Below are positions 14,450 through 53,895 of a stretch of 64,000 nt of DNA, one piece after another. The position numbers and the translations under genes are program-made. The stretch's first letter is position 1, and every line of letters starts with the position of its first letter. Source of the stretch: Psychrobacillus sp. BL-248-WT-3. Its GTDB lineage: Bacteria > Bacillota > Bacilli > Bacillales_A > Planococcaceae. Below the pieces are notes generated by a model. It saw only the letters and a program-made list of their open reading frames with translations, made no database searches and was not told the DNA's origin. Location of the stretch: NCBI RefSeq assembly GCF_012843435.1, contig NZ_JABAFC010000012.1, forward strand, positions 1 to 64,000, given 5' to 3'.

Positions 14450-14571
14450 TTTATCACCGTTCGCGCATGATTTATCACCGCTCAGCGAGATTTATAACCG
14501 GTTAGGCATGATTTATGACCGTTCGGAGAGATTTATAACCGCTCATGGGAATTTATCACCGCTAAGCAAAA
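14450..14571. repeat. Phased intergenic array 1 (TTTATNACCG units)
   Basis: Six degenerate units carry TTTAT(C/A/G)ACCG at 14450, 14471, 14491, 14512, 14532 and 14552, giving spacings of 21, 20, 21, 20 and 20 bp. The rest of each unit varies. A short frame crosses the array but has no ribosome binding site and looks like a by-product. The array lies between the fadE terminator and yusI. Its function is unknown; see the findings for three more arrays with the same spacing. Confidence 0.85.
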
Positions 14572-14670
14572 ACAAGGATATTTTTAAAGTTAAGAAGAGA
14601 GCATTTCACTGTTCTCTCTTGCATGAGTAACAAAATATTATTATGATAAAAAGAAAAAGGTGAGATATAA

Positions 14671-15033
14671 ATGACAATCCAATTTTATGGATATCCAAAA
14701 TGTAGTACATGCAACAAAGCAAGCAAATGGCTGAAAGATAACGATATCCCATTTGAGAACCATCATATCGTTGACGCACCGCCTTCAAAGGAACTATTAA
14801 AGGAAATGGTGGCACAAGGCGATTATGAACTGAAAAAATTCTTTAATACTAGCGGCGTAAAATATCGTGAATTACAATTGAAGGACAAGCTTCCTACAAT
14901 GTCGGAGGATGAGCAGTTAGAGCTGCTTGCTTCGGATGGAAAATTGATTAAACGACCTCTTGTATATAATGGACATAAGCTAACGCTTGGTTTTAAAGAA
15001 GAGCAGTTTGAAGACATATGGAAAACCTCTTAA
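14671..15033 (+). CDS. yusI: ArsC/Spx-family protein YusI
   Basis: The 120-residue ArsC-like thioredoxin-fold protein has a CSTC motif (YGYPKCSTCNKASKWL, cysteines at residues 10 and 13) and the conserved RPLVYNGHKLTLGF stretch near the end. It belongs to the arsenate reductase/Spx-MgsR superfamily but is neither a proven arsenate reductase nor Spx itself. The gene order fadE-yusI-gcvH is the same as in B. subtilis. AAAAAGGTGAG precedes the ATG. Confidence 0.88.
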   Translation: MTIQFYGYPKCSTCNKASKWLKDNDIPFENHHIVDAPPSKELLKEMVAQGDYELKKFFNTSGVKYRELQLKDKLPTMSEDEQLELLASDGKLIKRPLVYNGHKLTLGFKEEQFEDIWKTS

Positions 15034-15106
15034 AGCACCTTGTATTTACTATGAAAATATGTGAATATTAAATAGAATGGATTAATTATTTGAGAGGGGT
15101 TTATTT

Positions 15107-15487
15107 ATGAGCGTACCTAAAGATTTTAAGTACTCAGCTGAACATGAATGGGTTAAAAATGAGGACGGAAATGTCCGTATTGGAATTACTCATTTTGCAC
15201 AATCTGAACTTGGAGATATCGTATTCGTTGAACTTCCACAAGTTGGCGATGAGATCAAGGCAGGAGACGCTTTTGGTAGCGTTGAATCCGTAAAAACTGT
15301 TTCAGAATTATATGCACCTATCAGTGGTAAAGTAGTAGAAGTAAATACTGAGCTAGAAGATAGCCCCGAATTTGTTAATGAATCACCTTATGAAAATGCA
15401 TGGATGATCGTGGTTGAGCCTTCAGACGTATCAGAAGTGGACAGCTTATTATCTCCTGAAAAGTACGAAGAATTAATAGCAGAGTAA
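15107..15487 (+). CDS. gcvH: Glycine cleavage system H protein
   Basis: The 126-residue lipoyl carrier shows the H-protein signature [22 protein letters not shown], in which the lysine of VESVKT (about residue 63) is the lipoylation site. It shuttles the aminomethyl group in the glycine cleavage system and, in Bacillus, also serves as the first acceptor for lipoate assembly by LipM and LipL. That ties it to lipA at 34.5 kb in this window. GAGAGGGG lies upstream of the ATG. A terminator follows immediately. Confidence 0.97.
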
Positions 15488-15492
15488 TAATG

Positions 15493-15523
15493 AAAACGCC
15501 GGTTAATAATCGGCGTTTTTTTC
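15493..15523 (+). terminator. gcvH terminator
   Basis: AACGCCG and CGGCGTT form a seven-base stem around a nine-base loop, followed by a T run, just after the gcvH stop codon. Confidence 0.9.
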
Positions 15524-15561
15524 ATATAATAAAGGAAAGGATAAGTTGGGAGAGAAGCTAA

Positions 15562-15912
15562 ATGGCACATGTATTTAGTGATAAAATAATTATCGTTGAG
15601 GGTAGGTCTGATAAGCTGCAATTATTAAGCCTTCTCGATGAATCTCCAGAAATTATATGTACTAATGGAACGATATCCGATGTAAAATTGGAGGAGCTAT
15701 TAAGCCCTTATGATGGCTTGCCGATTTATGCTTTTCTAGATGCAGACAAATCCGGGGAACAAATTCGATCGGTCGTTAGGAAGGAGTATCCAGAGGCAAT
15801 TCATTTGTATACGAACCCGACGTATGGCGAAGTAGCAAACACACCGGCGAAGGTTTTGGCATCTATATTAAAACGTGTTAATATTAAGGTGAAAAAAGAA
15901 TTTTTACCTTAG
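15562..15912 (+). CDS. yusF: Toprim domain protein YusF
   Basis: The 116-residue protein is a small stand-alone Toprim domain: the conserved glutamate in KIIIVEGRSDKLQLL (about residue 14) and the DxD motif in YAFLDADKSGEQ (about residues 58-60) form the metal-binding centre used by primases, topoisomerases and OLD-type nucleases. Similar small proteins include RNase M5-like and YusF proteins. The substrate here is unproven. It follows the gcvH terminator and precedes yusE by about ten bases, which suggests co-translation. Confidence 0.85.
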   Translation: MAHVFSDKIIIVEGRSDKLQLLSLLDESPEIICTNGTISDVKLEELLSPYDGLPIYAFLDADKSGEQIRSVVRKEYPEAIHLYTNPTYGEVANTPAKVLASILKRVNIKVKKEFLP

Positions 15913-15922
15913 GATGATGTGT

Positions 15923-16243
15923 ATGAATGAATGGACTAGAGAACAATGGGATAGCGCTAAAAACAATTCAACACTTACCTTGTTTTATATCTATACGCCT
16001 ATGTGTGGAACGTGTCAGGTAGCAAGTAAAATGATGAATGTTATTAAAGAAATGGTTACCTATCCAATTGGTCAGGCAAATATTAATTTTCTAGGTGATT
16101 TGGCGATAGAACAGGAAATTGAAAGTGTACCTTGTCTTCTTATTACAAAACATGGGAAAGTGGAAAAGAAAATCTATGCTTTTCAATCAGTTCCTTACTT
16201 ATTGGAAACAATAAAGGCTATTGACGAAGATGGAAACCTATGA
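15923..16243 (+). CDS. yusE: Thioredoxin-like protein YusE
   Basis: The 106-residue thioredoxin-fold protein has the motif MCGTCQVASKMM (CGTC, about residues 27-30) and a proline-containing loop, VPCLLITKHGK. It is likely a cytoplasmic disulfide reductase of unknown partner. Among several ATGs the one at 15923 lies eight bases after AGGA and is chosen. The promoter of the downstream SAM-riboswitch operon begins within its last codons. Confidence 0.82.
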   Translation: MNEWTREQWDSAKNNSTLTLFYIYTPMCGTCQVASKMMNVIKEMVTYPIGQANINFLGDLAIEQEIESVPCLLITKHGKVEKKIYAFQSVPYLLETIKAIDEDGNL

Positions 16244-16249
16244 TAATAT
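16221..16249 (+). promoter_or_regulatory. SigA-type promoter of the metNPQ operon
   Basis: TTGACG (16221-16226) and TAATAT (16244-16249) are separated by exactly 17 bp. Initiation about seven bases further would start the transcript some 25 bases before the SAM riboswitch. The -35 element lies inside the end of yusE. Confidence 0.75.
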
Positions 16250-16279
16250 TCGTTATGTTGAAAACACAATTTAATAGTG

Positions 16280-16390
16280 TCGCTCTTATTAAGAGAGGTG
16301 GAGGGAAGTGCCCTTTGAAGCCCGGCAACCGTCATGAAAGTGAAATGGTGCCAAGTCACGCAAAGCTATAGCTTTGGGAAATGAGAGAAT
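16280..16390 (+). ncRNA. SAM (S-box) riboswitch
   Basis: The sequence has the S-box core: CTCTTATT opens helix P1, followed by AAGAGAGGTGGAGGGA, then GCCCGGCAACC, the GGTGCCAA segment, and a closing AATGAGAG strand that pairs with the start. It sits upstream of a methionine ABC transporter and is followed by an intrinsic terminator, so SAM binding should favour termination. This is the classical S-box arrangement of Bacillales methionine genes. Confidence 0.97.
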
Positions 16391-16421
16391 GGATGAACGT
16401 TATTTTAAATAGATAACATAC

Positions 16422-16455
16422 ACCCCTTCTGCTCTTTTGCAGAAGGGTTTTTTTA
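16422..16455 (+). terminator. S-box-controlled terminator
   Basis: CCCTTCTGC pairs with GCAGAAGGG across a short loop and is followed by seven T residues. It lies between the riboswitch aptamer and metN, which makes it the expression platform. Confidence 0.92.
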
Positions 16456-16478
16456 TTAGGAAAGGTGGTCAGATTTAC

Positions 16479-17504
16479 TTGATTAGTTTAAAAGACGTTT
16501 CGAAAAGATTTATTACAAAGCAAGGAGAAATCGTTGCAGTAGATAGTGTAAATCTGGACATACAGCGTGGAGAAATTTTCGGGATTATTGGATACAGCGG
16601 AGCGGGCAAGAGTACGCTAATACGTTTGTTGAATGGGCTAGAAAAGCCATCTGACGGTCATATTACAGTGAATGGCCAGGAAATTACATCTATTAATGAG
16701 GACAAGCTTCGAAGCTTTCGTCAAAAAGTAAGCATGATCTTCCAGCATTTCAATTTACTATGGTCGCGAACAGTCGCTGAAAATATAGCATTCCCATTAG
16801 AAATTGCAGGAGTTCCAAAGGAAAAAAGAAAAGCTAGAGTAGAGGAGCTTTTAAGCCTTGTTGGATTGGAAGGAAGAGGAGACTCTTACCCATCTCAATT
16901 ATCTGGAGGACAAAAGCAACGCGTAGGAATTGCAAGAGCGTTGGCTAATGGTCCAGAGGTATTGCTTTGTGATGAGGCAACATCAGCTCTTGACCCTGAA
17001 ACAACCGACTCCATTTTAGACTTGCTCGTAAGCATTAATGAAAAACTCGGATTAACCATTGTATTAATCACACATGAGATGCAAGTTATTCAAAAGATCT
17101 GTAACCGAGTAGCAGTTATGGAAAATGGGCAAGTTGTAGAAGAAGGAGATGTGCTTGAGGTATTCCAAAAGCCACAACAGCCTATAACAAAGCGTTTCGT
17201 TTCTCAAATTTCTGATTCTAAAGAGCCAATTCAAACCATTCAAAATCTAGTTAAACTTTATCCAAACGGCAAGCTAGTTAAGCTCGTTTTCGTTGGAGAT
17301 ACTACAGAGCAACCAATTCTTTCAAGATTAATCAAACAGTTCGATTTAGAGGTAAACATTGTCCAGGGGAATATATCACACACGAAAAGTGGAGCGTTCG
17401 GGACACTAATCCTGCAAATCGATGGAAATGAACAAGCGGTGGAAGAGGCAATTGAATTTATCCACTCGCAAAAAGTTAAAACTGAGGTGATCAACAATGA
17501 TTGA
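16479..17504 (+). CDS. metN: Methionine ABC transporter ATP-binding protein MetN
   Basis: The 341-residue ATPase has Walker A GYSGAGKST (about residues 38-46), the signature LSGGQKQRVGIARAL, Walker B LLCDEATSALD and the switch histidine in LITHEM. A C-terminal NIL regulatory domain (about residues 265-340) senses intracellular methionine. It energises methionine uptake with MetP and MetQ. The start is the TTG at 16479 after AAAGGTGG; an upstream in-frame TTG falls inside the terminator. It overlaps metP by 8 bp. Confidence 0.96.
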   Translation: MISLKDVSKRFITKQGEIVAVDSVNLDIQRGEIFGIIGYSGAGKSTLIRLLNGLEKPSDGHITVNGQEITSINEDKLRSFRQKVSMIFQHFNLLWSRTVAENIAFPLEIAGVPKEKRKARVEELLSLVGLEGRGDSYPSQLSGGQKQRVGIARALANGPEVLLCDEATSALDPETTDSILDLLVSINEKLGLTIVLITHEMQVIQKICNRVAVMENGQVVEEGDVLEVFQKPQQPITKRFVSQISDSKEPIQTIQNLVKLYPNGKLVKLVFVGDTTEQPILSRLIKQFDLEVNIVQGNISHTKSGAFGTLILQIDGNEQAVEEAIEFIHSQKVKTEVINND

Positions 17505-18165
17505 ATCGTTATTTCCAAATGTTGATTGGCCTAAAATGTGGGAAGCCACTATAGAAACCCTTTATATGACCGCAATTTCTACAGTCCTAACAGCAATCTT
17601 TGGACTAATTTTAGGACTATTATTATTTTTGACAAGCCCACACCAAGCATGGGCAAATAAAATAGCAAACTGGTTGACCAGCGGAGTAGTCAATATTTTC
17701 CGTTCTATTCCGTTTATTATTTTAATCATTTTGTTGATACCATTTACAACGTTGTTGACGGGATCGATGCGTGGTCCGAATGCGGCCATCCCTGCATTAG
17801 TAATTGGAGCTGCTCCATTTTATGCCCGTATGGTTTTAATCGCACTACGAGAAATCGACAAGGGTGTTTTAGAGGCAGCTAAATCGATGGGTGCTAAAAC
17901 CTCTACAATCATTTGGAAGGTTTTATTGCCAGAATCGATGCCAGCCTTAGTATCTGGTATTACCGTAACGTGTATCTCACTAGTTGGTTATACAGCGATG
18001 GCGGGAATTATTGGCGCTGGCGGACTTGGGAATCTAGCATTTCAAGATGGTTTCCAGCGTAATCGCGGGGACGTAACACTCATTGCTACTATTTTAATAT
18101 TAATCATCGTCTTTATTCTACAATGGATCGGCGATATTATTACTACAAAAATTGATAAAAGATAG
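17497..18165 (+). CDS. metP: Methionine ABC transporter permease MetP
   Basis: The 222-residue MetI-type permease has five or six predicted membrane segments and the EAA loop ALREIDKGVLEAAKSMGAKTSTIIWKVLLPES that docks onto MetN. Its length and arrangement match the Bacillus MetP/MetI family. GAGGTGA inside metN serves as ribosome binding site, so the two genes are translationally coupled. Confidence 0.95.
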   Translation: MIESLFPNVDWPKMWEATIETLYMTAISTVLTAIFGLILGLLLFLTSPHQAWANKIANWLTSGVVNIFRSIPFIILIILLIPFTTLLTGSMRGPNAAIPALVIGAAPFYARMVLIALREIDKGVLEAAKSMGAKTSTIIWKVLLPESMPALVSGITVTCISLVGYTAMAGIIGAGGLGNLAFQDGFQRNRGDVTLIATILILIIVFILQWIGDIITTKIDKR

Positions 18166-18178
18166 GGAGAGATTGAAA

Positions 18179-18982
18179 ATGAAAAAATTATTGGCTGGGG
18201 TTTTATTATCCGTTAGTGCATTATCGCTTGCTGCTTGTGGCGATGAGGATAGCGACAAATTAGTTGTTGGTGCCTCTAACGTACCGCACGCAGAAATTTT
18301 AGAGCAGGTAGTACCTATATTAGAAGAACAAGGCATTGAGCTTCAAATTGAAACGTACCAAGATTACGTACTACCAAATAAAGACTTAAATAATGGCGAC
18401 CTAGATGCCAATTATTTTCAACATGCTCCTTATCTAGAATCACAAATGAATGATTTCGACTATGACTTCGTAAATGCTGGTGGCATCCATATCGAGCCGA
18501 TTGGTCTTTACTCTCAAAAGTATGATTCGATTGAAGAGCTTCCAGAAGGAGCAACGATCTTAATGAGTAACTCGGTTGCTGACCATGGCCGCGTACTAGC
18601 AATGCTAGAAGCAGAAGGGCTAATTACGCTTGCTGAGGGAATAGATAAAACAAAAGCAGAAATTGATGACATTATAGACAACCCGAAGAACCTAGAATTC
18701 GATCCAAACTACGAAGCTGCTTTAATGGTTCAGCTATATGAAAACAATGAAGGCGACGCATTGCTAATCAACTCCAACTACGCAATCGACGCTGGCTTAA
18801 ACCCACTAGAGGATGCAATCGCAATTGAAGACTCAGAATCTCCATACGTAAACCTAGTAGCGGTAAACGCAGGTGACGAAAAAGACGAGCGCATCAAAGC
18901 ACTAGTAGAAGCCCTAAAATCCCAGGAAATTCAAGATTTCATCTTAGAAGAATGGGGCGGATCAGTAGTTCCGGTGAAATAA
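18179..18982 (+). CDS. metQ: Methionine-binding lipoprotein MetQ
   Basis: The 267-residue lipoprotein has a signal peptide ending in the lipobox LAAC (LSASALSLAACGDED), so the cysteine near residue 20 is lipidated after cleavage. The mature part is a NlpA-family binding protein (NVPHAEILEQVVPILEEQGIELQIETYQDYVLPN) that captures methionine outside the membrane and delivers it to MetNP. The ATG at 18179 follows AGGGAGA and lies 13 bp after the metP stop codon. An intrinsic terminator ends the operon. Confidence 0.96.
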   Translation: MKKLLAGVLLSVSALSLAACGDEDSDKLVVGASNVPHAEILEQVVPILEEQGIELQIETYQDYVLPNKDLNNGDLDANYFQHAPYLESQMNDFDYDFVNAGGIHIEPIGLYSQKYDSIEELPEGATILMSNSVADHGRVLAMLEAEGLITLAEGIDKTKAEIDDIIDNPKNLEFDPNYEAALMVQLYENNEGDALLINSNYAIDAGLNPLEDAIAIEDSESPYVNLVAVNAGDEKDERIKALVEALKSQEIQDFILEEWGGSVVPVK

Positions 18983-19001
18983 TTGATAAAGCTGTAGAGT
19001 G

Positions 19002-19033
19002 AAGCAAGCACCTGGTGTGCTTGCTTTTTTTTG
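19002..19033 (+). terminator. metNPQ terminator
   Basis: GCAAGCAC and GTGCTTGC form an eight-base stem with a short loop, followed by eight T residues, about 20 bp after metQ. Confidence 0.93.
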
Positions 19034-19059
19034 TGGGGTGGGTTGAGGGGAAGAAAGCC

Positions 19060-19463
19060 CGTAAACGTGAGAAGCGCCTATAAACGTGAGACCCGCCCAT
19101 AAACTAGCGGAAAGTGTCCCATAAAGGGGGGGAAAGCGCCCATAAACCAGTTGAAACTGACCCATAAATGAAAGAAAAGTGCCCATAAGCGTGAGAATCG
19201 CCCATAAACTAGTGCAAAGTGTCCCATAAAGGGGGGGGAAGCGCCCATAAACCAGTTGAAACTGACCCATAAATGAAAGAAAAGCGCCCATAAACGTGAG
19301 AATCGCCCATAAACTAGCGGAAATTGTCTCATAAAGGGGTGGAAACCGCCCATAAACTAGTTGAAACTGACCCATAAATGAAAGAAAAGCGCCCATAAGC
19401 GTGAGAATCGCCCGTAAACTAGTGAAAAGTGTCCCATAAAGGGTTTAAAAGAGCCCATAAACC
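19060..19463. repeat. Phased intergenic array 2 (CCCATAAA units, 105 bp superblocks)
   Basis: About twenty units carry CCCATAAA or a close variant. Within one block they start at 19096, 19118, 19139, 19161 and 19182 (spacings 22, 21, 22, 21, then 19), and the whole five-unit block recurs at 19201, 19306 and 19411, an exact 105 bp period. Because 105 is divisible by three, two long minus-strand frames stay open across it with repeating peptides; neither has a convincing start site, so they are not reported as genes. The array follows the metQ terminator. Function unknown. Confidence 0.9.
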
Positions 19464-19604
19464 AGTTGAAACTAATCCCTCAATCAAACTCATAACAACC
19501 TACATATACTCTCTTAAATGTTTCATCACAAATAGGTTTAATTACCAAATTAATGGTATCTTTCTTAACTTAATTTTGCTAATCTAAAATTGAGGTGATG
19601 ACTA

Positions 19605-20552
19605 TTGATTATCAAAAAATATGCGAAATCGGAACAACTGAAAGCAATGAGATTATTATTGAATCGACTACCTTCGAAGCACCCGTTTTATCCCAAGCTA
19701 GCCACAGAAATACAGACAACGATGGCAGGTGACTATGGCGAGGAAATGGTTTATAGAGAATTGGAGAGGATGCGTTTACCTTATAATTATTTTTTATTAC
19801 ATAAGGTAATGCTGCGTACGGAAAAGTTATTTGAAATTGATTTTCTATTACTAACCCCTTTTGGTGCAGTTATTCTTGAAATAAAAAACATTATTGGATT
19901 GCTCGAATTTAAAGTGAATCCTTCTCAATTAATACAAACCAAAGATAATGGCGAGATTAAAAAGTACCCTTGCCCCGTTAATCAGTTAAATGAGTATTCC
20001 TATTTATTGTCTAATTTCTTTACACATCATAATCTTACGATACCAGTCTTTGGCGCTATTGTTTTTGCCTCTAAAAATAGCCATGTTAAAACTACAAACA
20101 ATGATACGACCATTCTTTATAAGAATGAGGTCTATTCATTCCTTCGAAACCTCCAAAATAACTCTACTATAGTATCCGTTTCTAAACTGAATCAGGTAAA
20201 AAATCTGATTTTAAAGCATGATTCCCCATTTGAATTTTTTCCATTAACGAAACATTATTCAATAGAAGTAAGTGATTTAATCTCAGGCGTAGCTTGTGAA
20301 GGCTGTGGACAGGTAGGTATGAATAAAATTAAAAATATTTGGTATTGTACAAGCTGTCAGTATGCTGACAAATATGCTTCGCTAAAATCAATTCAGCATT
20401 ATTTTTGGCTATATGATGACATTCTGACCAATAAAGCTTGTAGAAAATTTTTACTTTTGGACAGCCGTTATGAAGTGAAGAGGCTATTAAGGAAAGCCAA
20501 TCTCTTAAAATTAGGAAAATATAAAATTACACAGTATAAAAAGAAAAATTAA
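19605..20552 (+). CDS. NERD (nuclease-related) domain protein
   Basis: The 315-residue protein has an N-terminal NERD domain: GDYGEEMVYREL (about residues 42-53) and EIDFLLLTPFGAVILEIKN (about 86-104), where D and ExK are the predicted nuclease-type metal site. Near residues 226-248 a CEGCGQ...WYCTSC motif forms a zinc ribbon. The C-terminal region is helical and may bind nucleic acid. Activity and target are unknown; such proteins occur widely in Bacillales. The TTG start follows GAGGTGATGAC. It stands alone, flanked by array 2 and a gene-poor stretch. Confidence 0.85.
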   Translation: MIIKKYAKSEQLKAMRLLLNRLPSKHPFYPKLATEIQTTMAGDYGEEMVYRELERMRLPYNYFLLHKVMLRTEKLFEIDFLLLTPFGAVILEIKNIIGLLEFKVNPSQLIQTKDNGEIKKYPCPVNQLNEYSYLLSNFFTHHNLTIPVFGAIVFASKNSHVKTTNNDTTILYKNEVYSFLRNLQNNSTIVSVSKLNQVKNLILKHDSPFEFFPLTKHYSIEVSDLISGVACEGCGQVGMNKIKNIWYCTSCQYADKYASLKSIQHYFWLYDDILTNKACRKFLLLDSRYEVKRLLRKANLLKLGKYKITQYKKKN

Positions 20553-20880
20553 CTTCCCTGCACAAAACTTTTTTAAAATGATTCATTTCTCCCCTTTTTA
20601 ATTTCACCTAAATTATTACCAATTAAATAAGTTTCCAATTATCGAAAACGATTAGCTAGAAGCTTATTCCTCTCAGGCGCATGAGGGTGGGATTTAAAAT
20701 AGGAGACTGGCTTTTATTTTACGCCGATATGTTACGTGAAATGATAAAAAGGATTCGTGTGACATATGTATCAATTCAATATTTACGAAATGAATTTTCA
20801 GAATAAAAAGGATGTTTGAACTTAACATGAGGTGGTATGTAGTGTAGTATAGAAAACATTAAAAAGGAAAGGAATGATTC
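20553..20880. other. 328 bp without a recognised gene
   Basis: The stretch between the NERD gene and the small gene at 20881 is AT-rich, with a moderately GC-rich patch near 20670-20715. I searched it for riboswitch cores, tRNA and long hairpins and found none I can support. It presumably holds the promoter of the following small gene. Confidence 0.4.
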
Positions 20881-21072
20881 ATTATCAGTTCGGGAGAGTT
20901 ACCCTATACAGAACAGATGGACCACGCATTCAGAGGAGTACATGGTTTCGGTTACGATGAATTAAGAAATAGTCAAACATTGAGAGCAAAAGTTGAGAAA
21001 CGTCGTCAGGCAGATCACGAAAAAAGTATGCAGCTTGCAGCTAAGCTCGATGCTCGTGCTTTCCGAGGTTAA
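20881..21072 (+). CDS. Small conserved-looking protein, probable ATT start
   Basis: A 63-codon frame reads ISSGELPYTEQMDHAFRG and then VHGFGYDELRNSQTLRAKVE, ending KLDARAFRG. It is hydrophilic, with a helical, charged C-terminal half and no membrane segment. An in-frame TGA at 20875-20877 leaves no ATG, GTG or TTG upstream of the apparent N-terminus. The strong site GGAAAGGA (20866-20873) is seven bases from an ATT codon at 20881, so an ATT start, as in infC, is inferred. The only in-frame ATG near the N-terminus, at 20917, has no ribosome binding site. I do not recognise the family. A terminator follows. Confidence 0.6.
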   Translation: MISSGELPYTEQMDHAFRGVHGFGYDELRNSQTLRAKVEKRRQADHEKSMQLAAKLDARAFRG

Positions 21073-21087
21073 TTTAAATAGAAGACA

Positions 21088-21122
21088 AAAATCCATGCAG
21101 TCTAGGCTGCATGGATTTTTTA
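21088..21122 (+). terminator. Terminator after the small ATT-start gene
   Basis: AATCCATGCAG and CTGCATGGATT form an eleven-base stem with a five-base loop and a T run, 16 bp after the stop codon. Its presence supports the preceding frame as a real transcription unit. Confidence 0.93.
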
Positions 21123-21354
21123 GTTAACACTATCGCCGTAGTGATATGCATTCTCAATTAGAGTTATCTTATTGAAAATGATAGTGTCATAAAGTACCAT
21201 GCGGAAGAACCTAATTTTTCTCTTATAATTGTTATATATTATCAATAAGAAAGTGTTTCAAAAGATTTGCAAGGGACTTCAGTTTGAGTTAAGATTAGAA
21301 TGATAATAAATTAGAATGGTTATACATTTCTAGTTACTTAATGGAGGTTATTAA

Positions 21355-22134: not shown

Positions 22135-22151
22135 GAAAGGGGACGCATGAC

Positions 22152-25115
<2,964 letters not shown>

Positions 25116-28329: not shown

Positions 28330-28580
28330 GCAACACTTGAGGCCGTTTACGCAACACATAAATTTAGTGGAACAGTATGATCCATACTCGCAACACTTTC
28401 AAGTTTAGTGCAACACTTTGGTGATTACTCGCAACACTTGAGGCCGTTTACGCAACACTTAAATTTAGCGCAACAGTTAGACCCATACCCGCAACACTTA
28501 CAAATTTAGTGTAACACTTTAGTGATTACGCGCAACACTTACTGAGAAAAGCGCAACACTTTGAGATTATCTGCAACACA
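28330..28580. repeat. Phased intergenic array 3 (GCAACACTT units, 101 bp superblocks)
   Basis: Thirteen units with GCAACAC or a one-base variant start at 28330, 28351, 28369, 28390, 28410, 28431, 28452, 28470, 28491, 28511, 28532, 28553 and 28573. The spacing series 21, 18, 21, 20, 21 occurs twice exactly, giving a 101 bp five-unit block. The array fills most of the 427 bp between the frameshifted gene and yunF. It has no coding signature. Function unknown. Confidence 0.9.
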
Positions 28581-28663
28581 TAGGCACTTTCCATCAACTC
28601 ATTTTTTTGTCTGTTTGATGAGGGAAATGATATGATAATTAGTAATAACGAAGAGGTGGTTTG

Positions 28664-46700: not shown

Positions 46701-46706
46701 ATAAAT

Positions 46707-46746
46707 GAAAGAACATTTTCTTGCATTAGAAAATGTTCTTTTTTAT
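46707..46746 (+). terminator. yutM terminator
   Basis: AAAGAACATTTTC and GAAAATGTTCTTT form a thirteen-base stem, followed by T residues. Confidence 0.93.
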
Positions 46747-47034: not shown

Positions 47035-48246
47035 GTGAAAAGACCAACAGTTCTAGTATTAGGAGCAGGTTACGGTGGATTATCTACTGTAGTAAACCTT
47101 CAAAAATTAGTAGGTACAGATGAAGCAGATATAATTTTAATAAATAAAAACGATTATCATTACGAATCAACTTGGTTACATGAGGCTTCGGCTGGTACGT
47201 TAAGTCCAGATCAAGTACGTTACGATATTAAAGACGTTATCAATAAAGGAAAAGTTCAATTCGTAAAAGCTACAGTTGAAGGAATTGATGTAAACTCTAA
47301 AAAAGTAGCAACAAGTGCTGGGGAATACACATATGATTACCTTGTAATTGGATTAGGCTTTGAAGGAGAAACATTTGGAATTACAGGTTTAGATAAATAT
47401 GCTTTATCTATTGCAAACGTAAATGCAGCTCGTCAAATCCGTGACCATATCGAGTACCAATTTGCTACATGGTCTACAGAAGAAACAAGAGATGATGCTC
47501 GTTTAACAATCGTTGTAGGTGGGGCTGGATTCTCTGGTATCGAATTCTTAGGAGAGTTAGGGAATCGTATTCCTGAGCTTTGTGCGGAATATGATGTTCC
47601 AAAAGAAAAAGTACGCGTTGTTTGTGTTGAAGCAGCACCTATGGTTTTACCAGGATTCGATCCTGAGCTAGTTGAATATGCTGTTCGCCAACTAGAAGCA
47701 AAAGGAATTGAATTCTCTATTGGAACACCAGTAGTAGAAGCAACTCCTGAAGGCGTTAAGATTAAAAAAGGTGAAGAAGAATTTGAATTCATCAAAGCTG
47801 GTACGGTTGTTTGGGCAGCTGGTGTCCGCGGAAACCGTTTAATCGAAACTTCTGGCATCGAAAACATGCGTGCTCGTGTTAAAGTTGAAAAAGATATGCG
47901 TGCTCCTGGTTTCCCAGACGTATTTATCGTTGGAGACTGTGCATTGATGATCAACGAAGCAATTAATCGTCCATACCCACCAACAGCTCAAATTGCAATG
48001 CAACAAGCTGTAACAGTAGCTCAAAATATCGTAGCTCTTATGAAGGGTGAAAATACGAAGGAATTCGTTCCTGAGCTTAAAGGAACAGTATGTTCTTTAG
48101 GTGAGCATGATGCAATTGGTGACGTAATGGGTAGAAAACTTACTGGTACAAAAGCTTCTATTATGAAAAAGGTTATTGATAACCGTGCTCTTTACATGAT
48201 CGGTGGAGTTCCATTAATGATCAAAAAAGGTAAATTCAAACTATAA
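47035..48246 (+). CDS. yumB: Type II NADH dehydrogenase YumB
   Basis: The roughly 403-residue flavoprotein oxidises NADH and reduces menaquinone without pumping protons. The FAD site is [17 protein letters not shown] (residues about 5-21), the NADH site [20 protein letters not shown] (about 160-180), and the second FAD contact [10 protein letters not shown]. The C-terminal amphipathic segment [24 protein letters not shown] probably anchors it to the membrane. The GTG at 47035 follows AAAGGTGG. With yutJ it is the second NDH-2-like protein in the window. Confidence 0.93.
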
Positions 48247-48259
48247 TATTAATATAACC

Positions 48260-48296
48260 AAATCTCCTACTGAATTATTCAGTAGGAGATTTTTTG
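48260..48296 (+). terminator. yumB terminator
   Basis: ATCTCCTACTGAAT and ATTCAGTAGGAGAT form a fourteen-base stem with almost no loop, followed by a T run. Confidence 0.95.
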
Positions 48297-48439
48297 TGGA
48301 GGAAAATACCAAAAAGTTTAGAGAAGCGCTTTCAGCTTAATCACATCCAATTATAATTAAATTAGTGGATAATAAAAGGCGTGCTAAGTTTAAGGTTAAC
48401 TTTTAGTACCTTGTAATAAGGTTAAGGGGGTCGAAGTCA

Positions 48440-48613
48440 ATGCAAACTAAACTAGTTTTATATATTTCAATTTGCTTGATGCAATTAATAATTTTAACCA
48501 ATATCGTTCTTTTTGAGGGACAGTGGAATGGAATTACGATGTGGTTATGCACAGCTATATTTGTTCTTTCTTCTGCTGTTTTTGGTTTTAATAGAACAAG
48601 AAAAAAAAGATAA
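48440..48613 (+). CDS. Small two-span membrane protein
   Basis: A 57-codon frame reads MQTKLVLYISICLMQLIILT and ends FGFNRTRKKR. Two hydrophobic segments (about residues 5-23 and 33-49) with a positively charged tail indicate a small membrane protein with both ends inside. AAGGGGGT lies about ten bases before the ATG. I do not recognise the family. The opposite-strand frame over the same place has no ribosome binding site. Confidence 0.6.
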   Translation: MQTKLVLYISICLMQLIILTNIVLFEGQWNGITMWLCTAIFVLSSAVFGFNRTRKKR

Positions 48614-48724
48614 TTGAGATCCATTAAAAAATAATCGTAACAAGAACTTTCCCTTTAATTTTCTCCCCATTTTCTTGTCTTGAAGGAAATTGGCGCTTAC
48701 ACTTATCTTAAGGGAGTTGGTTTA

Positions 48725-49219
48725 ATGTCTAGAGATAAAAGAGGTAGCGTATGGCTAGGAGTAGCTGGGTTAGTTTTAAATAGTAAAGGTGAATGGTTGG
48801 TTGTTAACAAGCGATACGGTGGGTTGGAAGGTAAATGGTCGCTTCCAGCTGGCTTTGTAAATGGCAATGAAACAGTTGACGAGGCTGTGCTCAGAGAGGT
48901 ATTAGAGGAGACAGCGGTAAATTGTAGGGTCATCAATATGATCGGGTTTAGAAGTGGTGTATTGCAAGGAAAAATAAGTGATAATATGGCTATTTTTCTT
49001 CTCGAACCAACAACAGATGAGCCAATTATCCAGGTCCAGCTGTCAGAGCTTTACGAGGCAAAGTGGATTCATCCTACAGACTTATTGCTCGATCAGACAG
49101 CCTCCGTTATGTTACATGAGCTAGCAGCAGCTTCCTTAGAGGTGGGTTTTCCAACTATAGATGGTGTAGATCCAGGAGATATATTTGGTTATACGAGTTA
49201 TAAATTATTCATAAAATAA
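48725..49219 (+). CDS. NUDIX hydrolase
   Basis: The 164-residue protein has a full Nudix box, GFVNGNETVDEAVLREVLEETAV (about residues 43-65), matching Gx5Ex7REUxEExGU except for alanine at the last glycine. It should hydrolyse a nucleoside diphosphate derivative. The N-terminal RGSVWLGVAGLVLNSKGEWLVVNKRYGGLEGKWSLPAG is typical. The ATG at 48725 follows GGGAGTTGG; an earlier in-frame ATG at 48680 lacks a site. Substrate unknown. Confidence 0.88.
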   Translation: MSRDKRGSVWLGVAGLVLNSKGEWLVVNKRYGGLEGKWSLPAGFVNGNETVDEAVLREVLEETAVNCRVINMIGFRSGVLQGKISDNMAIFLLEPTTDEPIIQVQLSELYEAKWIHPTDLLLDQTASVMLHELAAASLEVGFPTIDGVDPGDIFGYTSYKLFIK

Positions 49220-49230
49220 AAGCTGAAACT

Positions 49231-49271
49231 AATACGGCATAAGTGGCTAGCCTAGCTTTTTATGCCGTATT
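49231..49271. repeat. 12 bp perfect inverted repeat after the NUDIX gene
   Basis: AATACGGCATAA and TTATGCCGTATT flank a 17-base loop that itself contains GGCTAGCC. No T run follows, so it is a weak terminator at best or a structured end of the mRNA. Confidence 0.7.
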
Positions 49272-49583
49272 AATATTATGTGTTAATTTCTTATATAATA
49301 GCTTACGTCATTACGCTCCCCCCATAAAAAGCATCCGCTAGATAAGCCAAAAATAATTTGCTGTATTAATAAAAGCATATAAACCCTAATATTCATTTTC
49401 AATTGTTCGGTTTTTTTCAAACAAAAAGGTAAACGTTTTAATTAATAATAAATTAAATAATTAGAATAATTTCATTATTTAGACACATTTATATAAAAAA
49501 GTAGAGGATGTTCATTTACAAATATATTAATACGTGATATATTATCTGAATATTATAAATAAATGAATGAGGAGGCGCTAAGA
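49272..49583. other. 312 bp AT-rich region, no gene seen
   Basis: Apart from the inverted repeat at its left edge, this very AT-rich stretch before yuiA shows no open frame with a ribosome binding site and no RNA motif I can support. Confidence 0.4.
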
Positions 49584-49706
49584 ATGACTAAATTACAAGA
49601 AGTAACTTCAAAATCATGTCCGTATTGTAAAGGGGAAGGGTACTTTCAATTAAGGCTTGGAGGATCCGAAACATGCGGCTGTTGTCAGGGCACTGGCAAG
49701 AAATAA
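49584..49706 (+). CDS. yuiA: YuiA family small zinc-ribbon-like protein
   Basis: The 40-residue protein has two CxxCxGxG-type motifs, SCPYCKGEGYFQL and TCGCCQGTGKK, as in DnaJ zinc domains. This is the YuiA family seen just before yuiB in Bacillus. It should bind one zinc ion; function unknown. GAGGAGGCGCTAAGA precedes the ATG. Confidence 0.88.
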   Translation: MTKLQEVTSKSCPYCKGEGYFQLRLGGSETCGCCQGTGKK

Positions 49707-49759
49707 TAATAAGGCTTTTTGACAAAAATGTGAAAAGAGATAACTGGATTGAATACCTG

Positions 49760-49797
49760 CCTCCGTTAAGGTAAACTATTTAAAGATGTAACGGAGG
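49760..49797 (+). promoter_or_regulatory. Hairpin that hides the yuiB ribosome binding site
   Basis: CCTCCGTTA (49760-49768) is perfectly complementary to TAACGGAGG (49789-49797), with a 20-base loop. The right arm is the yuiB ribosome binding site. Folding would block translation of yuiB. Confidence 0.65.
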
Positions 49798-49806
49798 TTA
49801 ATGACT

Positions 49807-50130
49807 ATGAATTTTACAATTACACAGATGATTCTTTCAGTTCTAATATTTCTAGTAATGTTTTTTGGAATCGCCTTCCTATTAAATATGTTGCTTAGAA
49901 TGTCTTGGTTTGTAGCTATTCTTTATCCACTTATAGTGATATTTATTATTGATGAGGTCGGATTCTTTGATTACTTTACAAAACCGGGTTCTTCCTTCTC
50001 TGCTCTAGGAGAAAAATTCATGTCACTACATATGGCAGATATCGTTATTTTATCAAGTGGTTTTGTCGGTGCAATTCTAGCGGGAATTGTGATTAAAATG
50101 CTACGTAAAAGTGGATATCAGATGTTTTAG
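49807..50130 (+). CDS. yuiB: YuiB family membrane protein
   Basis: The roughly 107-residue protein has three membrane segments (MILSVLIFLVMFFGIAFLLNMLL, WFVAILYPLIVIFIIDEV and IVILSSGFVGAILAGIVIKML) and belongs to the YuiB family, whose role is unknown. Of two in-frame ATGs, the one at 49807 is better spaced from GGAGG. A nine-base hairpin covers this binding site. It follows yuiA by 100 bp, and the pair corresponds to B. subtilis yuiA-yuiB; yuiC is missing. Confidence 0.85.
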   Translation: MNFTITQMILSVLIFLVMFFGIAFLLNMLLRMSWFVAILYPLIVIFIIDEVGFFDYFTKPGSSFSALGEKFMSLHMADIVILSSGFVGAILAGIVIKMLRKSGYQMF

Positions 50131-50205
50131 AAAGATGGCCTGTCTAGGCTGTCTTTTTTTGGTGTTTAGGAAATTATAAAATACTGAACCTGTGGATAAA
50201 TTAAT

Positions 50206-50360
50206 GTCTAGCTCCACCGCCTTGCCCCTCGGGGTCAAATGGATAAAAGCTGCTCCTGCGCAAGCTCGTCGCAAACAAAAGCGTTTGCGGTGGCTGAGGA
50301 ACTGCCTCCTCGATTTTGCCCATTTGCCTGTCGGGGCAGTGACAGGCGCTTGCGCTTTTC
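50206..50360. repeat. Bacillaceae-type intergenic palindromic repeat
   Basis: The segment starts GTCTAGCTCCACCGCCTTGC and ends CAGGCGCTTGCGCTTTTC, with CCCCTCGGGGTCAAATG near the left and TTTGCCTGTCGGGGC near the right. The whole folds as an imperfect palindrome. Similar GTCTAGCTCCAGCGCC...GGCGCTTGCGCTTTTC repeats are common between genes in Bacillaceae. A 79-codon frame crossing it (50192-50431) is not a gene. Confidence 0.75.
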
Positions 50361-50545
50361 TTGTTATAGAGCCACTCTACTTAACTCTGCTTAAAAAAGA
50401 TTATTATAAATACACACAAACAGTTTTCTAGTTATATGCATATGTTTCGGCTGAAGTGATATCTACTCTTTTATTATCATTTGTGTGCTTCCTCTTATGA
50501 GGTTTATATTACTGAAGAACAAATAAGTTAAATGGGAGTGGGAAA

Positions 50546-50779
50546 ATGTTATTATTATGGCAACTTTCATTATTTGTTTCAATTTTAACTTTATTAGTTG
50601 GTTTTGTTAAAAAGTCTTGGGTCTTCTTATTAATTAGTACGTTTACTTTTATACCGATAGCATATTATTTTTTAGGGGCGAATAATGCTTGGAAATATGT
50701 TGGTTTAACTCCTGTCATACTACTTGTTCTTACTATATTATTCTGGTTCATAAGTAAAAAAATGAGTTCAGTTAAATGA
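50546..50779 (+). CDS. Small three-span membrane protein
   Basis: The 77-residue protein is almost entirely hydrophobic, with three predicted membrane segments (about residues 2-20, 23-42 and 51-70) and a short basic tail (SKKMSSVK). GGGAGTGGGAAA precedes the ATG. I do not recognise the family. It stands alone between two repeat elements and has its own terminator. Confidence 0.72.
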   Translation: MLLLWQLSLFVSILTLLVGFVKKSWVFLLISTFTFIPIAYYFLGANNAWKYVGLTPVILLVLTILFWFISKKMSSVK

Positions 50780-50819
50780 TAAATCTATAAATAAAACCCT
50801 TTAAAAAAAGAAATCAAAT

Positions 50820-50858
50820 AAAAATGAGCTTGGAGAAAATATCCCAGCTCATTTTAAT
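50820..50858 (+). terminator. Terminator after the small membrane protein
   Basis: AAAATGAGCT and AGCTCATTTT outer arms with an inner GGA/TCC stem, followed by AATTT. The MITE-like element begins three bases after it. Confidence 0.85.
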
Positions 50859-50860
50859 TT

Positions 50861-51244
50861 AGGCTATGTTAAAGGTTAGGGTTGATTTATGATGCAAAGA
50901 AATCTTAGATCAGAGAGTAGAATTGATTTCCGCCCCAGCCGGACGCTTTCCTCGGGGTGAGCGATAAGCCATCACCCATCGCTTACGCGCGTGGTTGTGA
51001 TGTCTTATCTGTCTCACTCATCCCGTAGGAGTCGCCGTCTGGCGCTCCAATCAATAAACGGGAACAGCTTTAGCATCGATAAAGCGCTTATAAACTTACT
51101 CGCATAAATAAAGTAGAAAAACTGTCAACAACCCCAATTCATCAACTATTTAAGTTCTTAATAGCCATTTGACTTTTTATAATGTTTACAGTCACTATAA
51201 AAAAGAATTGTTAGTCAAAATCAACCGATAACTTTAACAAAGCT
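50861..51244 (+). mobile_element. MITE-like element with terminal inverted repeats
   Basis: The left end AGGCTATGTTAAAGGTTAGG and, on the opposite strand, the right end AAGCTTTGTTAAAGTTATCG form imperfect terminal inverted repeats of about 28 bp that continue GGTTGATTT. The element is flanked by TTTAATTT on both sides, an apparent 8 bp target-site duplication. The interior carries no coding sequence but a GC-rich hairpin core (GGACGCTTTCC...GGGATGAG-type). It is about 80 per cent alike, by eye, to the truncated inverted copy at 26624. The parent insertion sequence is not in the window. Confidence 0.8.
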
Positions 51245-51274
51245 TTAATTTATTCAACCTTCACCTTGATAGCC

Positions 51275-51760
51275 TTATAAAATAACCGTATAAATAACGA
51301 TGGATATTAAAATACCGGTTAATGCCCCCATAAAAACTTCAATAGGCTTATGTCCAAGTAAAGTTTTTAGTTCTTCTAGCTTTTCCTCGCTCTTCTTGTG
51401 TCCCCAATCCTTTGTTTGATTAACAAAAGTTTGAAAATCTACACGCATCTGATTGATAATGATGGCTTGCTGACCGGCTTGAAATCTAACACCTGTTGCA
51501 TCAAACATCACTATAACTGCGAACACTGTAGCAACTGCGAAAAGGGTAGAGTCTAACCCCGTTTCAAAAGCAATAGCTGTACACAATGACGTTACAGCAG
51601 CCGAATGAGAGCTTGGCATTCCACCTGTAGAAGTGAATAATTTCCAATCTATCTTTTTAGTGACCAGAAAATGTATTGGTATTTTCACGAACTGGGCAAA
51701 GAAGATGGAGAAAAGAGCAGCTAATAGTGGAGTATTTTGGAGAATTGCCACAGCAGACAC
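51275..51760 (-). CDS. yuiD: Divergent PAP2 family membrane protein YuiD
   Basis: The 161-residue protein has four or five membrane segments and the divergent PAP2 motifs: FVKIPIHFLVTKKIDWKLFTSTGGMPSSHSAAVTSLC contains the GGMPSSHSA core, and MFDATGVRFQAGQQA is the second family block. It probably dephosphorylates or binds a lipid phosphate in the membrane. The GTG at 51760 follows AAGGAAGG. It is divergent from pepA, as yuiD is next to yuiE in B. subtilis. Confidence 0.9.
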   Translation of the reverse strand: MSAVAILQNTPLLAALFSIFFAQFVKIPIHFLVTKKIDWKLFTSTGGMPSSHSAAVTSLCTAIAFETGLDSTLFAVATVFAVIVMFDATGVRFQAGQQAIIINQMRVDFQTFVNQTKDWGHKKSEEKLEELKTLLGHKPIEVFMGALTGILISIVIYTVIL

Positions 51761-51870
51761 CGCCTTCCTTGTAAAACTTTGTTACTTTTAGTATAACATA
51801 TTCTCACTATTCGAAAAATCATTCTCGTTGCTATATAATAAGAATGTATCCAAATTATGTAGGGGGAAAA

Positions 51871-53376
51871 ATGATGATTATTAGCACTAACAATGTAACA
51901 TTCGAAGAAGTACAATCCGAAACACTAGTGGTAGGAATTCCTAAGCATCCTGAAAATACAGAGAAATGGGATGCATTATTAAATGTGTATGGAAATCACA
52001 TTCTTGATTGGGTAAAAAGTGGTGACATATCATCAGACTCGAAAAAAATAATTAAAGTCCCAATAGCAGGTCAAGAAACTGTTAAAAGAATATTATTTGT
52101 AGGGCTTGGAGATCGTAAAAAGTTAACACAAGAAAATATTCGAGAAGCATTTGGTTTAGTAGGGAAAGAGCTACTTTCTAGCAAGCCTGAATCCCTTGCA
52201 GTGTGGGTTCCATCATTTACCTCTGAGAGCGCTACAGAAGCTGATGTAGCTTATTTAGCTGGTGAGGGGATTGGTATGGGAGCTTTTGTTTATGAGGGCT
52301 ATAAAACAACCTCTAACGTGCCGGATTATTATTTACCAGCTATCGAGCTTTTAACAGATACTGACTTAGAAGAAGCTGCAACTTACTTTGAAGTAGGAAG
52401 TATTTATGCGGATGCTGTTAATGAAGCTAGAATTTTAGTGAATACACCAGGGAATGTGCTGACTTCTACACAACTAGGAGAGTATGCAAGAGAGCTTGGT
52501 GAGACATATGGCTTTGAAACAGAAATATTAGGTAAGAAAGAAATAGAAGAGCTTGGTATGGGAGCTTTATTGGCGGTAAACCAAGGATCAGTTGAAGAAC
52601 CACGTTTAATAGCTTTGAAATATCAAGCTACGGATAATTGGGATGATGTGGTAGCACTTGTTGGGAAAGGAATTACTTTCGATACAGGAGGTTACTCTAT
52701 TAAAACAAAAACTGGTATCGTTGGTATGAAAGGCGATATGGGTGGAGCAGCAGCAGTTTTAGGTGCTATGCAAATTATTGGTGAGCTTCGCCCTAATAAA
52801 AACGTAATAGCAGTAATTGCTTCAACGGACAATATGATTTCTGGAAATGCATTTAAGCCGGATGATGTTATTACTTCTATGAGCGGAAAAACGATTGAAA
52901 TTCTTAATACAGATGCAGAGGGACGTTTAGTTCTTGCAGATGCGGTAACATATGCAAAACAGCAAGGTGCTAATTACATTGTCGATGTGGCTACTTTAAC
53001 AGGTGGAGTAATCACCGCATTAGGATTTGACAAAACTGGAGCACTAACAAATAATGAAGAATTTTTTGAAACCTTTATGGAATCCTCTTTGGAAACAGGA
53101 GAATTTGTATGGAGACTTCCGTTAACTGAAAATGATAAGAAACGCATTCGTAAAAGTGACGTCGCAGATCTAAACAATTCCCCTGGAGGAGATGGCCATA
53201 TGATTTTCGGTGGTGGTTTCGTAGGAGAATTTGTAGAAGATACACCATGGATTCACTTAGATATCGCAGGTACGTCCGATGCAAAAGCAGCATATGACTT
53301 TGGACCAAAAGGCGGTACTGGTGTAATGGTTCGTACTTTAGCAACGCTTATTGAAAGAATGGCAGACGAAGAGTAG
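51871..53376 (+). CDS. pepA: Leucyl aminopeptidase (PepA/YuiE, M17 family)
   Basis: The roughly 501-residue enzyme removes N-terminal residues from peptides with two metal ions. The M17 signature NTDAEGRLVLADAVTYA (about residue 350) and ligands in VALVGKGITFDTGGYSIK, MKGDMGGAAAVLGAM and ASTDNMISGNAF are intact. The N-terminal alpha/beta domain regulates assembly into hexamers. The ATG at 51871 follows AGGGGGA; an earlier ATG at 51844 has no site. It ends just upstream of a glycine-rich protein gene. Confidence 0.95.
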   Translation: MMIISTNNVTFEEVQSETLVVGIPKHPENTEKWDALLNVYGNHILDWVKSGDISSDSKKIIKVPIAGQETVKRILFVGLGDRKKLTQENIREAFGLVGKELLSSKPESLAVWVPSFTSESATEADVAYLAGEGIGMGAFVYEGYKTTSNVPDYYLPAIELLTDTDLEEAATYFEVGSIYADAVNEARILVNTPGNVLTSTQLGEYARELGETYGFETEILGKKEIEELGMGALLAVNQGSVEEPRLIALKYQATDNWDDVVALVGKGITFDTGGYSIKTKTGIVGMKGDMGGAAAVLGAMQIIGELRPNKNVIAVIASTDNMISGNAFKPDDVITSMSGKTIEILNTDAEGRLVLADAVTYAKQQGANYIVDVATLTGGVITALGFDKTGALTNNEEFFETFMESSLETGEFVWRLPLTENDKKRIRKSDVADLNNSPGGDGHMIFGGGFVGEFVEDTPWIHLDIAGTSDAKAAYDFGPKGGTGVMVRTLATLIERMADEE

Positions 53377-53435
53377 GATAAACGCACAGGACACTTATCC
53401 CACATAGCATACACTGTGTTGAAAGGAGGGACATT

Positions 53436-53696
53436 ATGGTTAGATATCAACGCGGTGGTTATGGGGGAAGAGGTCCAGGAGGTCCTAGGGGTCCAGGTGG
53501 CCCTGGAGGATTTGGAGGTTACGGAGGTTTTGGTGGTGGCTTTGGTGGATTTGGAGCTCCGCTATTAGGAGGCTTTGTAGGAGGACTTTTAGGTTCTTCT
53601 ATTATTGGATTTGGTGCAAGACAACCATATCCATATCAACCTTATCCATACCAGCCTTATCCTTACTATGGTTCACCATATTCCCCGTATTATTAA
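53436..53696 (+). CDS. Glycine-rich, PYPYQ-repeat protein, possible spore-surface protein
   Basis: The 86-residue protein is low in complexity. Residues about 5-45 are glycine-rich (GGYGGRGPGGPRGPGGPGGF), the middle has a hydrophobic glycine segment (LLGGFVGGLLGSSIIGFG), and the end repeats PYPYQ three times before YYGSPYSPYY. Proteins of this kind occur in spore coats and exosporia of Bacillales, so that role is inferred. GAAAGGAGGG gives a strong ribosome binding site. A terminator follows. Confidence 0.85.
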   Translation: MVRYQRGGYGGRGPGGPRGPGGPGGFGGYGGFGGGFGGFGAPLLGGFVGGLLGSSIIGFGARQPYPYQPYPYQPYPYYGSPYSPYY

Positions 53697-53703
53697 CTAG
53701 TAT

Positions 53704-53755
53704 AAAAAAGCTTTTGCAATTCGTGGAGGATCACGTTTTGCAAAAGCTTTTTTTA
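53704..53755 (+). terminator. Terminator after the glycine-rich gene
   Basis: AAAAAGCTTTTGCA and TTGCAAAAGCTTTTT form a long stem with an inner CGTG/CACG pairing, followed by a T run. Confidence 0.92.
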
Positions 53756-53778
53756 GTTGAAACTATTTCCAGCCCCTG

Positions 53779-53895
53779 GATTATAGTAAAAAAATGAGTG
53801 ATTGTCGAAAATTAGAGCACGATTGTAGTAAAGGAGTGCTGAATTGTCGTAATCCATGCACTGGAGGGACATCCAACTCCTCGATGGTAGAAAAC
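53779..53895. repeat. Phased intergenic array 4 (GATTGTMG units)
   Basis: Degenerate units with GATTGTAGTAAA or GATTGTCG start at 53779, 53800, 53821, 53842 and 53883. The first four are exactly 21 bp apart; the last is 41 bp on, which equals two units. The array lies between the terminator of the glycine-rich gene and that of mrpG. It is the weakest of the four arrays. Function unknown. Confidence 0.6.

Follow-up and report, generated by a model that had tools for sequence, protein, structure and literature searches.

The 64-kb window analysed here, part of contig C4 in the draft genome of Psychrobacillus sp. BL-248-WT-3 (G000; 3,795,545 bp, 91 contigs), contains four intergenic arrays of direct repeats, in each of which a short core recurs at about two turns of the DNA helix (Table 1). 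A preliminary description of this DNA had reported the arrays as unrelated in sequence and alike in spacing, and had proposed a common mechanism acting on them regardless of sequence. The shared spacing was found genome-wide in G000 and across relatives despite different cores, the arrays retain this physical spacing as their sequences change over time, and IS256-family transposons have inserted across six core types, so that something does act on the arrays regardless of core. It is somewhat probable that these are helically phased protein-binding arrays, read by certain IS256 transposases via their architecture and not their sequence; this estimate rests on those IS256 elements that do target arrays.

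Arrays 1–3 are real and not due to chance. The spacings reported earlier for array 1 (21/20/21/20/20) were reproduced exactly, with cores starting at 14450, 14471, 14491, 14512, 14532 and 14552. Those given for arrays 2 and 3 were exact for parts of each, and the full arrays hold further units and other distances, including 43 and 39 bp: 18/20/22/21/22/21/19/22/21/22/21/19/43/22/21/19/22/21 in array 2, where five units together form a higher-order repeat of 105 bp, and 21/39/20/21/21/18/21/20/21/21/20 in array 3, which has a higher-order repeat of 101 bp. Array 4 holds just two exact GATTGTMG cores (53800 and 53821), the rest being mutated copies read by eye; it is weak alone. Because GATTGTNGTAA pairs recur genome-wide with a reversed-pattern control of 0, array 4 is accepted as belonging, in degenerate form, to a real family. 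The cores differ in sequence as had been stated, but most have in common, by eye, a loose GAA-(G/C-rich)-TAAA layout, and some may for this reason be divergent versions of one ancestor. A long-loop hairpin upstream of array 4 was read by eye and missed by the hairpin program. A family search on two window neighbour genes returned NERD and DUF72, and the upstream neighbour of array 2 is presumably metQ, a name used here as an anchor label.

Table 1 Features of the window and locus lists from the genome survey
Feature	Position or loci	Strand	Description
Array 1	14450..14571	-	six units, core TTTATNACCG (CGGTNATAAA on minus strand), 20-21 bp spacing
Array 2	19058..19473	+	core CCCATAAA in ~20 units, mostly 19/21/22 bp apart, between metQ and NERD-domain gene
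Array 3	28330..28581	-	12 recognised units, core GCAACACTT (AAGTGTTGC on minus strand), spacing 18/20/21
Array 4	53780..53895	+	three to five degenerate units, GATTGTMGTAAA family, spacing 21/21/21/41
Terminator hairpin	14405..14428	+	immediately ahead of array 1 (computed)
Terminator hairpin	19001..19027	+	between metQ frame end and array 2 (computed)
metQ-like lipoprotein gene	18152..18982	+	upstream neighbour of array 2; anchor for cross-genome comparison
NERD-domain protein gene (PF08378)	19605..20552	+	downstream neighbour of array 2
51-52-bp-class loci	L104, L109, L111, L113, L121, L128, L135, L137, L138, L142; L290, L291, L314-L317, L320-L323
rve-type insertion sequences in hairpin survey	G147 L228, L241, L266-L269; G123 L249, L261-L263; G129 L222, L237, L248, L257

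Exact core pairs at array spacing numbered 69 for CCCATAAA, 52 for GCAACACTT, 29 for TTTATNACCG and 49 for GATTGTNGTAA in G000, and the reversed patterns of the four cores gave 0 pairs in that genome. The GATTGTNGTAA pairs were 21 bp apart in every listed row (49 in G000, 62 in G096 and 39 in G104; reversed-pattern control 0). Among 151 family genomes, pairs of the GCAACACTT core were confined to three (G000, G096 and G104), and the reversed GCAACACTT pattern had a single occurrence, in G077. A sequence-blind scan at lags of 8–80 bp over 826,570 bp of G000, on contigs partly picked for holding pattern matches, gave 37 periodic groups (score 0.32) compared with 1 in one Markov-1 shuffle, so that shuffled sequence lacked the periodicity. 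The lags of the 37 groups were mostly 20–22, 40–43 or 60–63 bp, and the exceptions (8–17, 29–31, 52 and 56 bp) were mostly in-gene or AT-rich. The modal distance was 18–23, 39–44 or 59–65 bp in 27 of the 28 stronger arrays, the remaining one being an in-gene repeat. Additional cores from the scan were ACCGACCGATTAT, AACCTTGC, GCACCTAAA and AGTTGCGGGAAAT. For seven core patterns, counted in sampled stretches of two strains, adjacent cores no more than 35 bp apart were spaced 18–22 bp (mode 21), except for one pair at 27 and one at 34 bp.

Strain comparison, genomic share and curvature were based on the 27 groups with at least two exact cores (23 of the 27 for curvature). Twelve arrays were present in a 614,609-bp subset of G000 and made up 3.0% of its noncoding DNA, a share that is slightly low because array ends were trimmed and on which the IS256 conclusion below does not depend. 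The four array families were distributed around the G096 chromosome, no rule of chromosome position was found for them there, and the terminus-region protein suggested earlier is thus not indicated. By eye, the CCCATAAA arrays of G096 point in opposite directions on the two chromosome halves (9 of 10 loci), and this is the only family with a strand bias. Two arrays are composites (L037:12737-13090 and L040:15557-15860), in which AACCTTGC units and AAGTGTTGC units adjoin in identical orientation.

Arrays of the 21-bp class were present in 15 of 18 further Psychrobacillus genomes, mostly with other cores. Each genome was sampled in a stretch that surrounds the same genes and measures ~20 kb (7.4 kb in one case); none was seen within the sampled stretch of G087, G057 or G129. 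Across 80 Bacillales loci (1.54 Mb), 50 periodic groups were detected, compared with 3 in shuffles. Of the stronger arrays in loci L060–L081, 31/35 belonged to the 21-bp class (exceptions at 38, 33, 35 and 9 bp), and in other genera (n=32) 16 belonged to this class, 14 to a class of 49–54 bp and 2 to neither, giving two main period classes near two and near five helical turns. The array class therefore occurs in the majority of the Psychrobacillus genomes sampled, and some of the other Planococcaceae and Bacillaceae have it too. Arrays of both period classes occupied 2.6–4.4% of noncoding DNA in random samples of 120 kb each from G106, G125 and G039, and no array of either class was seen within 40 kb of random stretches of G044. 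A broad spread of unit lengths, named beforehand as a refuting observation, was not seen in G000; the relatives do have arrays of 51–52 bp and a few of 33–36 bp. An inverted repeat within the unit was often seen by eye in the 51–52-bp class, which was noted in Neobacillus, Bacillus, Peribacillus and relatives. Repeats of 33–36 bp were noted at L074:1766-2002, L077:17358-17440 and L100:5981-6081, some with GCGCAGGAGC or GACGAGC-like parts.

The region between metQ and the NERD-domain gene held an array (score at least 0.31) in 11 of the 13 Psychrobacillus genomes in which both genes lie side by side; in the two without an array the genes are separated by 117 and 105 bp, and the neighbour is missing from six further genomes. 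The commonest 8-mers in the 11 occupied slots were of eight kinds, some partly similar. In this comparison of orthologous intergenic regions the array slot is conserved, but the core sequence is not kept. Core turnover was also seen between G000 and G096, strains of one species whose array flanks are 90.7–99.9% identical. Array 1 is decayed in G096, with about three degenerate units, and array 4 is absent from the corresponding place (both by eye); one slot differs in array type between the strains (AACCTTGC units vs AAGTGTTGC units), and in another slot the core orientation is reversed (L027 vs L177). In well-aligned arrays the gaps between the two strains were largely whole units (19, 43, 101, 21, 39 and 40 bp), with some of 1–8 bp. 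Positions changed in the cores numbered 40/1,536 (2.6%), compared with 269/2,290 (11.7%) in the spacers (Fisher p = 2e-27) and 391/9,872 in the flanks, genes included. These counts come from 14 of 15 chosen array pairs, with swapped or lost arrays excluded and with cores defined on G000 at up to one mismatch, which gives a slight bias in favour of the cores. The cores are 4.5 times more stable than the spacers and are thus under constraint.

The strongest rival explanation is an inherited satellite, in which neutral minisatellites arise by slippage or unequal exchange, keep an inherited unit length and gather IS256 copies because the DNA is dispensable. Whole-unit gains and losses, the 101- and 105-bp higher-order repeats, the loose similarity between cores, the type swap and losses between strains and the two-core composite blocks all fit such an origin, and unit number varies between strains as in a variable-number tandem repeat. 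An unconstrained unit, however, would not have cores that change less than their spacers (2.6% vs 11.7%), which makes plain slippage, one of the mechanisms put forward earlier, hard to reconcile with the data as a full account. One core also occurs at many loci with different spacers, and the 18–22 bp spacing is kept in every family. With the insertion data given below, we regard a neutral satellite as unlikely.

Three CCCATAAA arrays in G096 were found to be broken by one and the same 1,496-bp element, an IS256-family transposon (419 bits with NF033543, cut-off 150). Six G096 copies and 23 assembled G000 ends were resolved through their 8-bp target duplications into 20 distinct sites, none common to both strains; the duplication size fits the 8–9 bp of the IS256 family. 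Eighteen of the 20 sites lay within arrays, whose flanking sequence shows six core types; this is far above the array share of noncoding DNA (binomial p = 7e-26). The other two lay in one gene, at different positions in the two strains (L188 in G096; L200/L205 in G000), and this recurrence suggests selection for loss of the gene. By eye, the twice-hit gene encodes an SGNH/GDSL hydrolase, and its target duplications differ. The arrays at L161 and L162 of G096 are free of the insertion sequence (IS) in G000, so that the arrays are older than the IS. Copies of IS256 in phased arrays account for many contig breaks of the G000 draft (ends of C3, C5, C8, C24, C28, C34 and others).

Three elements of other genera behaved likewise. 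With ends set by terminal repeats, copies in arrays numbered 7/7 for the element of G039 (21-bp class) and 5/5 each for the 413-aa elements of G106 and G125 (both 51–52-bp class); these 17 copies were examined of 20 full-length ones, and the 8-bp duplication was visible in 14 of the 17. At L324 of G039, two adjacent IS256-family copies lack a visible duplication and have flanks that match crosswise, as if their ends had been exchanged by recombination. In G141, another Psychrobacillus, both visible IS256 junctions adjoin arrays with different cores, and the sole IS256-family copy of G041 lies in a degenerate array (by eye). A broader count of 25 IS256-family copies, with ends partly guessed, placed 18 in arrays, two of them weak. 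That arrays are traps kept by the host to divert IS256-type transposons from genes would fit the 18 array sites in this species, with the other two confined to one gene, and the 17 array insertions of the three elements elsewhere. Such a role is improbable: 16 of 19 Psychrobacillus genomes have no match to an IS256-family transposase (G000, whose copies are unassembled, included), yet 15 of the 18 sampled relatives have arrays, and the conservation of the cores is left unexplained.

As a control, other rve-type transposases of G096, G123, G147 and G129 were examined in 30 of 63 matches (14/14, 4/12, 6/29 and 6/8, in the order G096, G123, G147, G129), and apart from the two copies of an IS3-family element, taken up below, 0 of 28 copies lay inside arrays; the left flank of one of the 28 (L228) includes a stretch with a period of 43 bp. 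Such elements also need dispensable DNA, and their absence from arrays therefore argues against dispensability alone as the attraction for IS256.

The position of insertion within the unit could be placed for 14 of the 18 array sites (three had no phase and one had two units only). Insertion centres lay 2–5 and 11–16 bp from the GAA start of the unit, with further centres at 22, 36 and 36 bp, and were clustered modulo 10.5 bp (R = 0.68, p = 0.0016, n=14), while a weight matrix built from these duplicated targets would give R = 0.24. At 21 bp the phase test was not significant (R = 0.27, n=14 sites). This bias suggests insertion on one helical face.

The favoured explanation, protein-bound phased arrays read by their geometry, would work as follows. 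Each unit consists of a conserved core of 8–12 bp and a variable spacer, kept together at two turns (18–22 bp, mode 21), and this spacing places the cores on one side of the double helix. The cores would be binding sites for sequence-specific DNA-binding proteins aligned along one face, and different core families may reflect different proteins or a fast-changing specificity. Certain IS256-family transposons would recognise the shared architecture, be it the bound protein or the groove geometry, and not the base sequence, and the arrays may serve them as safe landing sites. A bound protein with some role in the cell, combined with a transposase that senses the array, would be the simplest account of a preference that is blind to sequence. 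A broader version is possible and is held only tentatively: certain IS256-family transposons may home to helical phasing itself, so that any whole-turn array, of two or five turns, would attract them irrespective of sequence. The same geometry could be presented by a filament of host protein along one helical face or by the groove pattern itself. If homing by helical phasing is true, the arrays are a common, fast-evolving and unnamed chromosomal landmark of Planococcaceae and Bacillaceae.

Several results weigh against architecture reading. The phase test gave p = 0.007 at 12 bp, so that 10.5 bp is not sharply resolved, and the phase result is drawn from 14 sites in families aligned by their own GAA motif. 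No clear arrays of the three turns (31–32 bp) predicted by a pure helical rule were seen, one weak group (L004, lag 31) lying mostly within an open frame, and the few repeats of 33–36 bp are not whole helical turns; both observations weaken a pure helical rule. Of 27 further IS256-family loci (one per genome), 22 lacked an array of the 21- or 52-bp class next to the transposase gene; such an array was present at L289 (weak), L290, L291, L292 and L295, and three of these five are elements of the G039, G106 and G125 set. Copies in arrays numbered 1/5 (weak) for the G044 element, 0/2 for that of G101 and 1/2 (weak) for the 411-aa element of G106. Array targeting is therefore a property of some IS256 lineages and not of the whole family. 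Among the 30 rve copies, both copies of the IS3-family element of G096 lay in arrays, and the boundaries of the control copies are approximate. No protein that binds the cores was found, though no search was aimed at one. Lastly, the presence of at least six cores in one genome would require several proteins or one of very loose specificity.

Of the common mechanism proposed in the preliminary description, the shared phasing and an action on the arrays regardless of core, here insertion of IS256, stand, and plain slippage as a full account, intrinsic bending and a link to terminators are not supported. Wedge-model curvature was 75.5 for arrays and 73.2 for other intergenic DNA (mean z 0.64 for 23 arrays and 0.28 for 150 controls). 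The AT-content autocorrelation had a weak second peak at 10–11 bp in each of three separate sets, with contrasts of 0.065, 0.082 and 0.102 and of about 0 in column-shuffled units, a pattern that would fit a pair of AT-rich patches per unit, separated by a single turn. Phased, intrinsically curved DNA would account for the two-turn period and this weak AT signal, but the predicted curvature is ordinary and the explanation is most unlikely. Three of the four window arrays do lie downstream of a terminator, as had been noted; enrichment over other gene 3′ ends was not supported, a terminator being present at 12/19 of the 3′ ends facing an array and at 88/183 of the others. That the arrays act as RNA, in terminator read-through, as small RNA or as messenger RNA 3′ ends, is very unlikely. 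In nine tandem gene pairs the arrays were on the whole closer to the upstream stop than to the downstream start, as such a role would have it, but array 1 and 141-nt parts of arrays 2 and 3 folded no better than shuffles on either strand (z -0.5 to 0.6), one family has both core orientations relative to transcription, the orientation is flipped within one slot between strains (L027 vs L177) and the period is in helical turns. Coding potential was set aside, as units of 18–22 bp would break the frame and the long open frames would be due to few stops.

Iterons of plasmid origins are direct repeats about two helical turns apart that are bound by protein on one face. The arrays likewise consist of direct repeats about two turns apart, but they occupy many chromosomal loci, have many cores and found no counterpart in plasmid or phage collections. 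Iterons copied from a plasmid or phage could be kept as decoys against incoming replicons; an arms race would go well with the variety of cores and their rapid turnover, and iterons too repeat about every two turns. This origin is highly doubtful, as blastn of the arrays against plasmid and phage sequences gave no match and several of 17 viral contigs that matched three core patterns hold 19–21 bp repeats of other unit sequences (partly outside frames at L277, L279, L280, L283 and L286). CRISPR arrays have repeats of ~23–47 bp and unique spacers of similar length; the arrays described here have cores of 8–12 bp in units of 18–22 bp, and their spacers recur in the 101- and 105-bp super-units.

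Among described intergenic repeats, the STAR elements of staphylococci, as presented in PMC3532100, are alike in being intergenic direct repeats with a short conserved motif and locus-specific spacers, in shifting copy number by whole units and in having no known function. They are defined there by one GC-rich 14-bp motif, T(G/A/T)TGTTG(G/T)GGCCC(C/A), by spacers of at least 40 bp and by loci conserved within lineages, whereas the arrays have many cores, a 21-bp unit, cores that turn over within a slot even from one strain to another, and an association with IS256. Their core-to-core distance of 18–22 bp does not reach the STAR spacing given in PMC3532100, and the window has a single occurrence of the STAR motif, at 2 mismatches and outside all arrays, which is fewer than the chance mean of 1.87. 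REP/BIME elements, according to PMC1525189, are intergenic repeats favoured as targets by particular transposases, and the arrays are likewise a preferred IS target (18/20 sites; 17/17 copies of three elements). Unlike REP/BIME, described there as palindromes of given sequence, they are direct repeats of many sequences with a common phasing only, and showed no excess folding in array 1 or in the parts of arrays 2 and 3. The TAACTGA repeats of PMC4679880 are similarly abundant short intergenic direct repeats, but form 7-bp tandem units of one sequence that lie, in the main genome of that study, mostly just upstream of start codons.

In PMC3942029, a survey of Mutator-type elements, IS256 insertions appeared random; here, certain transposons of this family find the arrays. 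The TnGBS and ISLre2 transposases of the same superfamily are related and also spare genes through a preferred intergenic target, which in that text lies upstream of sigma-A promoters (15–17 bases for TnGBS and related ISs) and here is the array. A full-text literature search, judged by titles and abstract starts and with most subscription journals outside it, returned no description of these arrays or of their targeting by IS256. The arrays offer a system in which the choice of a target by DNA architecture can be tested, and point to a possible unknown chromosome-binding protein.

The rve-type ISs of G147, G123 and G129, which are other Psychrobacillus species, showed a different association, 14 of 16 having split a terminator hairpin so that each flank holds one half of the stem (by eye; Table 1).

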